A stretch of DNA of 64,000 nucleotides, from NCBI GenBank assembly GCA_004519485.1, contig CP038118.1:750095-814094 (forward strand), read 5' to 3'. The position numbers were made by a program, and so were the translations under genes. The notes beneath the pieces were generated by a model. The model was not told the DNA's origin and made no database searches. It worked only from the letters and a program-made list of their open reading frames with translations. Positions 23,395-40,766 of this stretch are shown one piece after another. The stretch comes from Nannochloropsis oceanica. Its lineage: Eukaryota > Sar > Eustigmatophyceae > Eustigmatales > Monodopsidaceae. Numbering within the stretch: position 1 is the stretch's first letter; every line of letters starts with the position of its first letter.

Positions 23395-26300
23395 ATGGGC
23401 ACACCGTCAAGGAAGTACCGCGGCATATGTCTCTGCCTAATATATTGTTTGACACGGTCGAACGCGTTGTGGTACCCAAGCAGAAAAAATGGTGGATTGA
23501 AAACCTTCACTATTATCTCCACGGAGGCAAAGAATCACGAAATAAGGTAAGCAGCATAGAAGAAAAGGACATAATCCCTGGTAAACCTAACATTCATCAT
23601 CACCACAGCCGAAAACTTGACGGTCAAACAGGCGACACGGGTGCTACGGGCACGACGGGTGCTACGGGCGCTACTGGCGCAACAGGCACGACGGGTGCTA
23701 CGGGTGTTACGGGTGCTACAGGTTCGACTGGTGCAACGGGTGCTACGGGCATAACAGGCGCTACGGGTGCTACAGGTTCGACTGGTGCTACAGGTACTAC
23801 GGGTGCTACGGGGGCTACGGGGGCAACAGGGGCTACTGGTATTACAGGTGCTACAGGTGCTACGGGTGCTGCGGGTGCTACGGGTGCTACTGGCATTACA
23901 GGTGCTACGGGCGTTACAGGTTCGACTGGTGCTACGGGCACAACGGGCGCTGCGGGCACGACGGGTGCTACGGGTGCTACGGGAGCTACAGGTTCGACTG
24001 GCGCTAGGGGTGCTACGGGCATAACAGGCGCTACGGGTGCTACAGGTTCAACTGGTGCTACAGGTGCTACGGGTGATACGGGGGCTACGGGGGCAACAGG
24101 GGCTACTGGTATTACTGGTGCTACAGGTGCTACGGGTGCTACGGGTGCTACTGGCATTACAGGTGCTACGGGCGCTATAGGTTCGACTGGTGCTACGGGC
24201 ACGACGGGCGCTACGGGTACTACGGGGGCTACGGGTGCTACGGGTGCTACGGGTGCTACGGGTGCTACGGGGGCAACAGGGGCTACAGGTGCTACTGGTA
24301 TTACGGGCACGACTGGTGCTACAGGTGCTACGGGTGCTACGGGGGCTACGGGGGCAACAGGGGCTACTGGTATTACAGGTGCTACAGGTGCTACGGGTGC
24401 TACGGGTGCTACGGGTGCTACGGGTGCTACGGGCGCTACGGGTGCTACGGGTGCTACGGGTGCTACGGGTGCTACGGGCGCTACGGGTGCTACAGGTGCT
24501 ACGGGTGCTACGGGCACGACTGGTGCTACGGGCGCTACAGGTGCTACGGGTGCTACGGGCACGACGGGCGCTACGGGTGCTACGGGTGCTACGGGCGCGA
24601 CTGGTGCAACGGGTGCGACTGGCATAACAGGCGCTACGGGGACTACAGGTTCGACTGGTGCTACAGGTGCTACGGGTGCTACGGGGGCTACGGGGGCAAC
24701 AGGGGCTACTGGTATTACAGGTGCTACAGGTGCTACGGGTGCTACGGGTGCTCCGGGTGCTACTGGCATTACAGGTGCTACGGGTGCTACGGGCACGACG
24801 GGCGCTACGGGGGCTACGGGTGCTACGGGTGCTACGGGTGCTACTGGCGGGACTGGTTCTACGGGCGCTACAGGTGCTACGGGTGCTACGGGCATGACGG
24901 GTGCTACGGGTGCTACGGGTGTTACGGGTGCTACGGGTGCTACGGGTGCTACAGGCACGACGGGTGTTACGGGCGCTACAGGTGCTACGGGTGCTACGGG
25001 CATGACGGGTGTTACGGGCGCCACAGGTGCTACGGGTGCTACGGGCACGACGGGCGCTACAGGTGCTACGGGTGCTACGGGTGCGACGGGCACGACGGGT
25101 GCTACGGGTGCTACGGGCGCTACGGGTGCTACGGGGACTACAGGTTCGACTGGTGCTACAGGTGCTACGGGTGCTACGGGGGCTACGGGGGCAACAGGGG
25201 CTACTGGTATTACAGGTGCTACAGGTGCTACGGGCACGACGGGCGCTACGGGTGCTACGGGTGCTACGGGCGCGACTGGTGCAACGGGTGCGAGTGGCAT
25301 AACAGGCGCTACGGGTGCTACAGGTTCAACTGGTGCCACAGGTTCGACTGGTGCTACGGGTGCTACGGGTGCTACGGGTGCTACGGGTGCTACTGGCATT
25401 ACAGGTGCTACGGGTGCTACGGGTGCTACGGGCGCTACGGGGGCAACAGGGGCTACTGGTATTACTGGTGCTACAGGTGCTACGGGTGCTACGGGTGCTA
25501 CGGGTGCTACTGGCATTACAGGTGCTACGGGTGCTACGGGCACGACGGGCGCTACGGGCGCTACGGGCACGACGGGCGCTACAGGTGCTACGGGTGCTAC
25601 GGGCGCGACTGGTGCAACGGGTGCGAGTGGCATAACAGGCGCTACGGGTGCTACAGGTTCAACTGGTGCCACAGGTTCGACTGGTGCTACGGGTGCTACG
25701 GGCATGACGGGTGCTACGGGTGCTACGGGTGCTACGGGTGCTACGGGCACGACGGGCGCTACGGGTGCTATGGGTGCTACGGGTGCTACGGGCACGACGG
25801 GTGTTACGGGCGCTACAGGTGCTACGGGTGCTACGGGCGCTACAGGTGCTACGGGTGCTACGGGCATGACGGGTGTTACGGGCGCTACAGGTGCTACGGG
25901 TGCTACGGGCACGACGGGCGCTACAGGTGCTACGGGTGCTACGGGTGCGACGGGCACGACGGGTGCTACGGGTGCTACGGGCGCTACTGGTGCTACAGGT
26001 TCGACTGGTGCTACGGGCGCTACGGGTGCTACAGGTGTTACGGGCGCTACGGGCGCGACTGGTGCAACGGGTGCGAGTGGCATAACAGGCGCTACGGGGG
26101 CTACAGGTTCAACTGGTGCCACAGGTTCGACTGGTGCTACGGGTGCTACGGGCATGACGGGTGCTACGGGTGCTACGGGCACGACGGGCGCTACGGGTGC
26201 TACGGGTGCTACGGGCGCGACTGGTTCAACGGGTGCGACTGGCATAACAGGCGCTACGGGGACTACAGGTTCGACTGGTGCTACGGGCGCTACGGGTGCT

Positions 26301-38300: not shown

Positions 38301-40766
38301 GGCACGACGGGCGCTACGGGTGCTACGGGTGCTACGGGTGCTACGGGTGCTACGGGTGCTACGGGTGCTACGGGGGCTACGGGGGCTACAGGTGGTACGG
38401 GGTCGACTGGTGCGACGGGTGCTACAGGTGCTACGGGTGCTACGGGTAGTACGGGTTCTACGGGCGCTACGGGTGCTACAGGTGCTACGGGTGCTACGGG
38501 AGCTACTGGTATAACAGGCGCTACGGGTGCTACAGGTTCAACTGGTGTCACAGGTTCGACTGGTGCTACGGGTGCTACAGGTGCTACGGGTGCTACGGGT
38601 AGTACGGGTTCTACGGGCGCTACGGGTGCTACTGGCGCTACGGGCGCTACGGGAGCTACTGGTATAACAGGCGCTACGGGTGCTACAGGTTCAACTGGTG
38701 TCACAGGTTCGACTGGTGCTACAGGTGCTACGGGTGCTACGGGCGCTACGGGCACGACGGGCGCTACGGGTGCTACGGGTGCTACGGGTGCTACGGGTGC
38801 TACGGGTGCTACGGGGGCTACGGGGGCTACAGGTGGTACGGGGTCGACTGGTGCGACGGGTGCTACAGGTGCTACGGGTGCTACGGGTAGTACGGGTTCT
38901 ACGGGCGCTACGGGTGCTACAGGTGCTACGGGCGCTACGGGAGCTACTGGTATAACAGGCGCTACGGGGGCTACAGGTTCAACTGGTGCCACAGGTTCGA
39001 CTGGTGCTACGGGTGCTACGGGTTCTACGGGAGCTACGGGTGCTACGGGCACGACGGGCGCTACGGGCGCTACGGGTGCTACGGGCGCTACGGGCACGAC
39101 TGGTGTTACGGGCGCTACAGGTGCTACGGGTGCTACGGGCATGACGGGTGTTACGGGCGCTACAGGTTCGACTGGTGCTACAGGTGCTACGGGTGCTACG
39201 GGGGCTACGGGGGCATCAGGGGCTACTGGTATTACAGGTTCTACGGGTGCTACGGGTGCTACGGGTGCTACGGGTGCTACGGGTGCTACAGGTGCTACAG
39301 GTGCTACGGGCGCTACGGGCACGACGGGTGTTACGGGCGCTACAGGTGCTACGGGTGCTACGGGTGCTACGGGCACGACGGGCGCTACGGGTGCTACGGG
39401 TGCTACGGGTGCTACGGGTGCTACGGGTGCTACGGGTGCTACGGGGGCTACGGGGGCTACAGGTGGTACGGGGTCGACTGGTGCGACGGGTGCTACAGGT
39501 GCTACAGGTGCTACGGGTAGTACGGGTTCTACGGGCGCTACGGGTGCTACAGGTGCTACGGGTGCTACGGGAGCTACTGGTATAACAGGCGCTACGGGTG
39601 CTACAGGTTCAACTGGTGTCACAGGTTCGACTGGTGCTACGGGTGCTACAGGTGCTACGGGTGCTACGGGTAGTACGGGTTCTACGGGCGCTACGGGTGC
39701 TACTGGCGCTACGGGCGCTACGGGAGCTACTGGTATAACAGGCGCTACGGGTGCTACAGGTTCAACTGGTGTCACAGGTTCGACTGGTGCTACAGGTGCT
39801 ACGGGTGCTACGGGCGCTACGGGCACGACGGGCGCTACGGGTGCTACGGGTGCTACGGGTGCTACGGGTGCTACGGGTGCTACGGGGGCTACGGGGGCTA
39901 CAGGTGGTACGGGGTCGACTGGTGCGACGGGTGCTACAGGTGCTACGGGTGCTACGGGTAGTACGGGTTCTACGGGCGCTACGGGTGCTACAGGTGCTAC
40001 GGGCGCTACGGGAGCTACTGGTATAACAGGCGCTACGGGTGCTACAGGTTCAACTGGTGTCACAGGTTCGACTGGTGCTACGGGTGCTACGGGTGCTACG
40101 GGTGCTACGGGTGCTACAGGTTCGACTGGTGCAACGGGCGCTACTGGCGCTACGGGTGCTACAGGTGCTACGGGGGCTACTGGGGCTAAGGGCATCACGG
40201 GTGCTACGGGCGCTACAGGGGCCACGGGCACTACGGGTGCTACGGGCGCCACGGGCGCTACGGGTGCTACAGGTGCTACGGGCGCGACTGGTGCTACGGG
40301 TGCTACTGGTGCTACGGGTGCTACCGGTGCTCTGGGCGCGACAGGGGCTACTGGGATGCAGGGCGCTACAGGCTCCACGGGGCCAACAGGTTTCCGAGGT
40401 TCAACTGGCTCTACAGGTTTTATAGGTCCTCTTGGGCCGGGAGACCCTCAGCTATGCTTGGCAACGTGCGTTGCCAACTATAATGCTTTCTATAATATTT
40501 GCATGGTAAGTGACCATGTTATCCTTCCCATTTATTAATGAGCATCCTTTTAAGCGCCAATTCATGCGTTGAGATGTCCAGCTATCATCCTTTTCCGTTC
40601 ATAATTTCAATTTTTTCTTCACACATCATAGTTTCAATTGAAGAAGTCTCGCATGCGGTGTTTGAGTGCCGCACAAGTTGCTCGCGAAACCTGTGAAAAT
40701 GCTTGCCGAGCAGCAGCATATCGGAAGAGAAATGTTAGAAATATTGCGGGCTACATAAATAGCTAA
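23395..40766 (+). CDS. Giant secreted Gly-X-Thr collagen-like protein (~5,727 aa), three exons
   Basis: Proposed exons 23395-23546, 23609-40505 and 40632-40766. The first intron (62 nt, GTAAGC..CCACAG) joins AG|C to give Ser. It brings in an N-terminus with basic residues, a hydrophobic core ([11 protein letters not shown]) and an Ala-containing cleavage site (SNA), i.e. a signal peptide. An unspliced reading from ATG 23313 is also open but has no signal peptide. About 1,870 Gly-X-Y triplets follow without a visible break, overwhelmingly Gly-Ala-Thr with Ile, Ser, Thr, Val or Met in X and Thr almost always in Y; Pro is nearly absent. After '[12 protein letters not shown]' comes a Cys-rich end, '[18 protein letters not shown]', continued in frame across the 126-nt second intron by '[20 protein letters not shown]' and '[10 protein letters not shown]' to the stop. 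Likely an extracellular or cell-wall triple-helical rod; trimerisation and O-glycosylation on Thr are inferences. Confidence 0.88.
23622..40440 (+). repeat. 9-bp coding repeat array with higher-order duplications
   Basis: The basic unit is GGN-GCT-ACG (Gly-Ala-Thr). Longer units are superimposed: corresponding variant patterns recur at 1,071 bp (38077 and 39148; 38680 and 39751), 1,179 bp (34459 and 35638; 34738 and 35917), 846 bp (35638 and 36484; 35917 and 36763) and 450 bp (26539 and 26989). Growth has therefore occurred by unequal exchange of blocks of ~0.4-1.2 kb, mostly in the 3' half. Because no stop trinucleotide arises in these units, other frames and the opposite strand are also open for kilobases. 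Confidence 0.9.

Follow-up and report, generated by a model that had tools for sequence, protein, structure and literature searches.

In textbook accounts, collagen owes its stability to proline and hydroxyproline. The cuticle collagen of Riftia is described as departing from this basis, its helix being stabilised by glycosylated Thr rather than by 4-hydroxyproline (PMC6953826, PMC11766948). In bacterial collagens, according to PMC8968730, Thr is the commonest residue at the Y position of the Gly-X-Y triplet and is mostly not glycosylated, although BclA is glycosylated, and the Gram-positive collagens with Thr at Y carry Pro at 31% of their X positions. Two further non-animal systems are relevant here: TrpA of the cyanobacterium Trichodesmium, a collagen-like protein of unusual length (PMC8441504), and the GT25-type enzyme L230 of mimivirus, which is related to human GLT25D1 and is reported to glucosylate the hydroxylysine of collagen (PMC9614988). 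In this work we examine a giant collagen-like gene of Nannochloropsis oceanica, located in a stretch of 64,000 nucleotides (bases 750095-814094 of contig C20, hereafter the window), and on balance we favour reading its product as a surface glycoprotein that is secreted, independent of proline, probably triple-helical, and stabilised by O-glycosylated Thr.

The gene occupies the forward strand of the window and is modelled with three exons separated by GT-AG introns. Exon 1 (23395..23546) provides the start, the predicted signal peptide and a short linker, and is followed by intron 1 (23547..23608; 62 nucleotides, GTAAGC...CACAG, phase 2). Exon 2 (23609..40505) encodes a further short linker, the entire Gly-X-Y array and the first half of a Cys-containing tail, while exon 3 (40632..40766), reached across intron 2 (40506..40631; 126 nucleotides, GTAAGT...CATAG, placed from the sequence), supplies the second half of the tail and the stop. 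The spliced product would comprise 5,727 amino acids (~455 kDa), of which Thr accounts for 34.5%, Gly for 32.9%, Ala for 25.1% and Pro for 0.14%. The signal peptide was called from homology and hydropathy and would cover approximately residues 1-24 (to base 23466, with the cleavage site placed by eye), with ICLCLIYCL as its hydrophobic core. A whole-genome search with this leader returned matches at C20 and C17 only. The C17 homologue of exon 1 (C17:670971-671122) has the same 152 nucleotides and aligns without gaps, and it is followed by a GT-AG intron of 77 nucleotides with the identical phase-2 junction. Both leaders possess a hydrophobic core, with best nine-residue mean hydropathies of 2.96 and 2.99; in the signal-peptide frame the two agree at 31 of 50 amino acids, and their mismatches by codon position (11/51, 11/51 and 27/50; Fisher P 7.6e-5) are concentrated at third positions. 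Because both the leader exon and the intron site are conserved in this paralogue, we accept the signal-peptide frame and intron 1, and the coding frame and predicted secretion of the window gene are well supported by this comparison. The unspliced frame (5,741 amino acids from the ATG at 23313) begins without a hydrophobic core, its hydropathy maximum being 1.09, and ends at a stop at 40538 inside intron 2. Its N-terminus was rejected, since the C17 homologue is interrupted by a stop in that frame, and since the third-position changes favour the signal-peptide frame.

The array itself consists of 1,869 uninterrupted Gly-X-Y triplets (23622..40442, forward strand; residues 56-5662), spanning 16.8 kb without a frameshift or stop, and it matches the collagen profile PF01391 above the cut-off (up to 39.4 bits against 27.2, with 79.4 bits for its joined end fragments). 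Thr occupies 1,846 of the 1,869 Y positions, so that it dominates Y as in the Riftia type, and Ser occupies eight. The X position is far more permissive, with 1,424 Ala, 141 Ser, 123 Thr, 119 Ile, 31 Val, 12 Met and 8 Gly, together with rare Pro (4), Asp (3), Phe (3) and Gln (1). The animal pattern of Pro at X and hydroxylatable Pro at Y is lacking, as the array holds five Pro in all (triplets 126, 1212, 1863, 1868 and 1869), four at X and one at Y. It has no Cys and a single Lys. Among the Y-position Thr codons ACG, ACA and ACT are common, and ACC occurs in 3 of 1,846. Exact internal repeats extend to 725 bp, and array length may therefore vary between strains; the repeats differ by many silent changes, however, and as such the array is more than one unit simply looped.

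These silent changes permit an estimate of selection within the array. In a strict comparison of pairs of internal segments (45 triplets, 94 to <100% identical; 3,510 sites for each base of the triplet), the differences at successive bases numbered 0, 0 and 542 in the Gly codon, 214, 92 and 254 in the X codon, and 3, 0 and 417 in the Y codon; a looser comparison (20 triplets, identity from 92%; 18,620 sites each) gave 0, 0 and 3973 for Gly, 1428, 543 and 2045 for X, and 26, 13 and 3160 for Y. As GGN, GCN and ACN are all four-fold degenerate, approximately one third of changes would be silent without selection. Mutational bias was controlled for through loss of the CpG in ACG at the Y position, where the silent product ACA was found 416 times and the Met codon ATG once. 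At X the residue moves freely among Ala, Ser, Thr, Ile, Val and Met, whereas nearly all changes in the Y-position Thr codons are silent, and this Thr is accordingly held under selection nearly as tightly as Gly.

The codon test alone cannot identify the coding strand, because an antisense Val-Ala-Pro frame is also open for 5,584 amino acids and has the same third codon positions as the sense frame. The sense strand was chosen because the leader exon is conserved and because a paralogous array on contig C30 is fused in frame to a DUF1194/vWA domain; an antisense Val-Ala-Pro protein was rejected on both of these grounds, and for the confinement of its open reading frame to the array, where it has no unique sequence. 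Searching the genome (29.26 Mb, 32 contigs) with PF01391, for which 150 of 240 candidates were scored such that further loci are possible, revealed at least four collagen-like loci, on C20, C17, C30 and C3. The window gene is therefore a member of a family, which the sequence-only reading that preceded this analysis had overlooked. The C17 gene (C17:670971 to ~678424) joins the leader described above to 762 triplets and a C-terminal domain of the C30 type, with Thr at 610 of 762 Y positions and mostly Met, Val and Pro at the rest. The C30 gene (C30:312145-315228) consists of the DUF1194/vWA domain, 213 triplets and the C-terminal domain; its Y position is Thr in 210 of 213 triplets, with internal differences at the three bases of 0, 0 and 38, and Pro is found at X 46 times, giving GPT-type triplets. 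The C3 locus has runs of 15 and 33 triplets split by one residue and shows no Thr lock. The lock is thus common to C20 and C30 and weaker in C17.

The C-terminal domain common to C17 (C17:678062-678424) and C30 (C30:314821-315183) is 75% identical between the two, and our own-genome search recovered just these copies. Scans of genome contigs and phages, which start from short exact peptide patterns and can miss distant relatives, encountered no relative, the C17 copy has no Pfam match, and the PDB gave a single chance-level match (E 0.31). A weak viral-contig stretch (L051, E 2e-5 among candidates) lies in a short open frame beside phage genes. Separately, PF01391 matches on C9 (L019:2760-4148, equal to C9:1045759-1047147, minus strand) fall in a Gly-Ala-Ala-type frame that is probably a shadow frame; they are doubtful and were kept outside the four loci. 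Contig C17 also carries tandem repeats of ~421 bp (L043:5778-9829, L044:288-770), each with the same 161-amino-acid open frame.

In place of this domain the window gene ends in a tail with six Cys spaced 3-10-10-10-3, a pattern that runs across intron 2. The donor of that intron is GTAAGT and its acceptor is preceded by a pyrimidine-rich stretch. The interval 40541-41000 contains 28 AG sites, and a frame with at least three Cys follows three of them: the proposed acceptor and, in the same frame, the sites lying 12 and 15 bases further on. When six Cys are placed at random with the ends fixed, 0.2% of the placements are palindromic, although the pattern was spotted before being tested. The three Cys of each half fall on one helix face (0, 40 and 60 degrees, and 0, 20 and 60 degrees), and for this reason the tail may form a hairpin of helices with three stacked disulphides. 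For the tail, the genome yielded no relative beyond itself, and none emerged from the searched genome contigs or viral contigs, where scans start from short exact peptide patterns and can miss distant relatives. Against Pfam (limit E 10) nothing exceeded its cut-off, the only match being FGF-BP1 (E 0.06, 13.5 bits against 25), and neither the COLFI C-propeptide of animal fibrillar collagens nor a C1q/TNF-like C-terminal domain of the BclA type was matched; the PDB gave two matches at chance level (E 0.7).

With regard to the sequence-only reading, every base of its exon and intron coordinates, including the junctions 23546/23609 and 40505/40632, is reproduced here. It had also held that the unspliced frame has no secretion signal and stops within an intron, as we find, and its proposal that intron 1 yields a signal peptide now has independent backing from the C17 paralogue with its shared leader and junction. 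Its intron 2 and six-Cys module are borne out by the donor and the palindromic spacing, though the searches turned up no relative for the tail. Its count of about 1,870 triplets in one exon becomes 1,869, all in exon 2; the near-absence of Pro and the Thr at nearly every Y position are as given above; and its figure of roughly 1.6 micrometres for a wholly triple-helical array, at 0.286 nm per residue, is recomputed as 1.60 micrometres.

Given these features, we propose that the signal peptide directs the chain into the endoplasmic reticulum. The six-Cys helical hairpin, adjoining the last Pro triplets (GPL-GPG), would register and trimerise three chains. The 5,607-residue Gly-X-Thr array would then wind into a triple helix of ~1.6 micrometres. 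Because Pro is nearly absent, it is reasonable to ascribe the stability of such a helix to the locked Thr at Y, most likely O-glycosylated in the Golgi, with a GT25 glycosyltransferase encoded in the same gene island as one candidate enzyme; the argument for glycosylation draws on this gene and on the Riftia and BclA precedents. The decorated rod would ultimately reach the surface of the cell and might there make up, or cover, fibre-like structures. Extensions of the N. oceanica wall, some of them fibre-like, have been described (PMC6013958), and they offer a natural candidate location. Of the earlier interpretation, the sequence part (leader, introns, six-Cys end, low Pro and Y-position Thr) stands, and the glycosylated-Thr precedent that it cited from Riftia is backed by the accounts in PMC6953826 and PMC11766948; its chemistry is plausible, yet tempered by the frequency of Gly-Ala-Thr (GAT) runs elsewhere, to which we return below.

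The candidate galactosyltransferase (12106..13118, reverse strand) is encoded in two exons (frames 12663-13118 and 12109-12705, with an approximate junction) and matches PF01755 at E 5.3e-9 (36.7 bits against a cut-off of 24). Its motifs IVEDD and GELGCILSH align with their counterparts in procollagen galactosyltransferase 1, and on this similarity the gene is a candidate collagen galactosyltransferase. Exon 2 differs from its C30 copy at 20, 12 and 45 of 174 sites each for the three codon positions. The whole genome contains five GT25 matches, one on C20, two on C30 and two weaker ones on C6. The C20 match lies 10.4 kb from the collagen start, and those of C30 at 20.4 and 29.7 kb from theirs. 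The regions up to 35 kb from the four collagen loci make up approximately 1.05% of the genome. If GT25 places were independent, the location of two out of three inside these regions would carry P ~3e-4; they are not independent, however, and the 35-kb limit was chosen after the distances were known. We therefore treat the link between GT25 and collagen as a lead.

Several observations weigh against the favoured reading. The comparisons within the array are pairwise, the pairs are not independent and the internal spread of units inflates the counts, although the contrast is very large; the zeros for Gly also follow in part from the definition of the run, which does not apply to the result for Y. 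The family does not share the Thr lock throughout, given that C17 retains it in only 610 of 762 triplets. For the GT25 gene, the best solved relatives are indeed procollagen galactosyltransferase 1, but with E-values of 0.033-0.046 that are weak and not significant alone. The GT25-HtrL segments of C20 and C30 are duplicates (~81% DNA identity), both in repeat-rich islands, and the nearness of GT25 to collagen may as such reflect shared history; C6, moreover, has glycan enzymes and weak GT25 matches without a PF01391 match among the candidates scored. The animal GT25 enzyme acts on hydroxylysine. So does L230 (PMC9614988), and the window array has its one Lys. Last, the alcohol-insoluble residue of strain CCMP1779 is reported to contain ~90% glucose among its neutral sugars, with small amounts of rhamnose, fucose, galactose and mannose (PMC3499364); the scarcity of sugars other than glucose limits the abundance that such a glycoprotein could have.

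The combination of a locked Thr and a nearly free X would also follow from dense O-glycosylation alone, and we have accordingly considered an extended single chain of the mucin or antifreeze-glycoprotein kind, with glycans on every third-residue Thr and no triple helix. The near-absence of Pro accords with such a chain, and the Ala-Ala-Thr antifreeze glycoproteins resemble the array in composition. It would, however, have no need of Gly at every third place, yet all 1,869 are kept without a swap to Ala or Ser even though X may be Ala, Ser, Thr, Ile or Val, a pattern that argues for a triple helix; the C30 paralogue, furthermore, carries GPT-type triplets and a DUF1194/vWA domain. We judge the single chain unlikely, though it is an alternative of some weight. 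Gly at every third residue and a small X are likewise typical of polyproline-II bundles such as the snow flea antifreeze protein, and a Gly-rich (polyglycine-II) bundle of this type within one chain was also considered. Known bundles are short and have turns and disulphides, whereas the array continues over 1,869 triplets without interruptions, turn segments or Cys, and we consider a bundle very unlikely.

A triple helix might alternatively be built with unmodified Thr and stabilised by hydration or end-capping plus sheer length, as in several bacterial collagens, and the moderate temperature at which N. oceanica lives would be compatible with this. The mostly unglycosylated Thr at Y in bacterial collagens (PMC8968730) speaks for such a helix, as does a Pro-free viral run of 117 triplets with 80% Thr at Y (contig L101). 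Nonetheless, the Pro content at X of the Gram-positive Thr-Y collagens cited above contrasts with 4 of 1,869 here, and the admission of Ser at Y just eight times is stricter than hydration alone seems to require; we regard this explanation as quite unlikely. Finally, the locus could be a silent or decayed subtelomeric repeat, or an assembly artefact, the open frame being no more than a by-product of a repeat that can be read through in several frames. Its position near a telomere in a repeat-rich island, the open antisense frame and the exact repeats would fit, but the purifying pattern at Thr, the conserved leader and intron, and the GT-AG splice sites render this scarcely credible.

Other genes of the window may be connected with glycan synthesis. 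A WbsX-type glycosyltransferase (426..2531, reverse strand; PF14307, E 2.1e-81) has an N-terminal membrane-like segment by eye, with WbsX matches also on C30, C18, C4 and C6 besides C20. An HtrL_YibB-like protein (10933..11961, forward strand; PF09612, E 7.4e-6, 26.2 bits against 24.1) has two 77% identical copies on C30, and an FkbM-type methyltransferase is encoded at 59076..60293 on the reverse strand (PF05050, E 4.3e-10). These three genes may be tied functionally to the collagen. The protein encoded at 43236..44468 (forward strand) appears by eye to be a type II membrane protein and, by eye alone, resembles fucosyltransferases (GGIGDRIRGI, HVRAG); it has no PDB match at E 10, its only Pfam match (DUF5736, E 0.071) is below the cut-off, and a 69% identical copy is found on C6. 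A third-position excess is seen in six of six copy comparisons covering four neighbour genes, and the neighbour enzymes are as such under purifying selection. Near the C17 gene lie two Methyltransf_22 matches, of which one exceeds the cut-off and the other falls short of it, and a sub-threshold sulphotransferase match lies beside that of C3. Also in the window, 3393-4901 encodes a protein that resembles type II membrane proteins and contains the stretch GDSLMRQTF, which is TBL/PC-esterase acyltransferase-like by eye; the protein has no Pfam match. A third glycan island homologous to that of the window, with no collagen match, is present at C6:1124000-1153700 (L047-L049); besides WbsX pieces, it holds residues 1-275 of the protein encoded at 3393-4901 (91-92%) and the aforementioned copy of the 43236-44468 protein (69%).

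The window ends in a telomeric TTAGGG repeat (63822..64000, no strand assigned) and so represents a chromosome end, the repeat lying 23 kb from the end of the collagen gene. Outside the array the G+C content is mostly 43-52%. Light-harvesting proteins are encoded in the genome, and one of them matches VCPI-2 of PDB entry 8zo9, from Nannochloropsis, at all 223 of 223 residues. Eight light-harvesting loci have 52-54% G+C, in agreement with the published N. oceanica genome, which is given as 28.7 Mb, with 53.8% G+C and a mean intron of 230 bp (PMC3499364). The window is rich in repeats common to C17, C6 and C30. One element, 85-89% identical between copies (window 20393-22883; L023:1-1743; L044:5724-8275; L049:5106-6833) and probably mobile, stands directly upstream of the C20 and C17 collagen genes and occurs on C6 as well. 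Further repeats (7801-8620, 8983-9862, 18566-19369 and 51424-54500) are mostly common to C17 and some to C6, and a helicase-like match at 9390-9782 (PF02689, E 3.5e-6, below cut-off) likely marks transposon remains. Rfam at gathering thresholds returned no match in the window or the four collagen-like loci.

A more far-reaching proposal, which we put forward as doubtful, is that Nannochloropsis possesses a collagen system of its own that does without proline, in which giant Gly-X-Thr rods would carry O-glycans on up to ~1,850 Y-position Thr per chain, attached by GT25 and other Golgi enzymes of the island, would be trimerised by a six-Cys hairpin of a new, palindromic type, and would build the wall extensions. 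If true, the action of GT25 on Thr instead of hydroxylysine would represent a new acceptor for this family. The locus also supplies a natural, very long and nearly pure Gly-Ala-Thr chain in a genetically transformable alga, such that the ability of Y-position Thr alone, bare or glycosylated, to hold a micrometre-long triple helix becomes directly testable. It further suggests what the wall extensions of Nannochloropsis may be made of, and points to a possible role for the GT25 family outside animals.

Among the open-licence papers listed we found no description of a collagen-like protein from Nannochloropsis, although description or annotation elsewhere is possible, and the genome paper on CCMP1779 does not use the word "collagen" in its main text (PMC3499364). 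To place the composition of the array in context, IMG/VR viral contigs were scanned for (GAT)8, and 80 loci were taken from at least 120 stretches, 79 of them with an in-frame run. The median run among these 79 was 17 triplets and the longest that of L101 discussed above, these lengths being lower bounds as some loci are end-clipped. Thr made up at least 90% of Y in 22 of the 79 and Pro at most 1% in 27, with four runs showing both, and none of the 79 united these two properties with a length of at least 40 triplets. As viral GAT runs are common and some are free of Pro, and as Thr is the commonest bacterial Y residue, a Gly-Ala-Thr composition alone is not unprecedented.

Within its own genome, the window gene shares its leader exon and intron with C17 but has 1,869 triplets against 762 and a different C-terminal domain; with C30 it shares a GAT-rich array, while that gene has 213 triplets, a DUF1194/vWA start and another C-terminal domain. 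Beyond it, the annelid cuticle collagens are described as having a very long triple helix (PMC6953826, PMC11766948); the Riftia protein is, however, an animal collagen for which Thr glycosylation has been shown, whereas in the window protein it is a prediction, and the array there is almost pure Gly-Ala-Thr. The BclA-type and phage collagens share Thr at Y and both GAT and GPT triplets, with glycosylation in BclA (PMC8968730). TrpA, likened here by description only, is long and belongs to a marine phototroph, as N. oceanica is, but is prokaryotic (PMC8441504). Blastocystis, a stramenopile, is reported to have bacterial-type collagen-like proteins with signal peptides and several genes per genome, again compared by description, with 63 triplets against 1,869 here (PMC5608401), and mimivirus combines low-proline collagens and a collagen glycosyltransferase in one non-animal genome (PMC9614988). 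What is unusual in the N. oceanica gene is the combination of its length, the near-absence of Pro, the strictness of its Thr, and its occurrence in a photosynthetic stramenopile.

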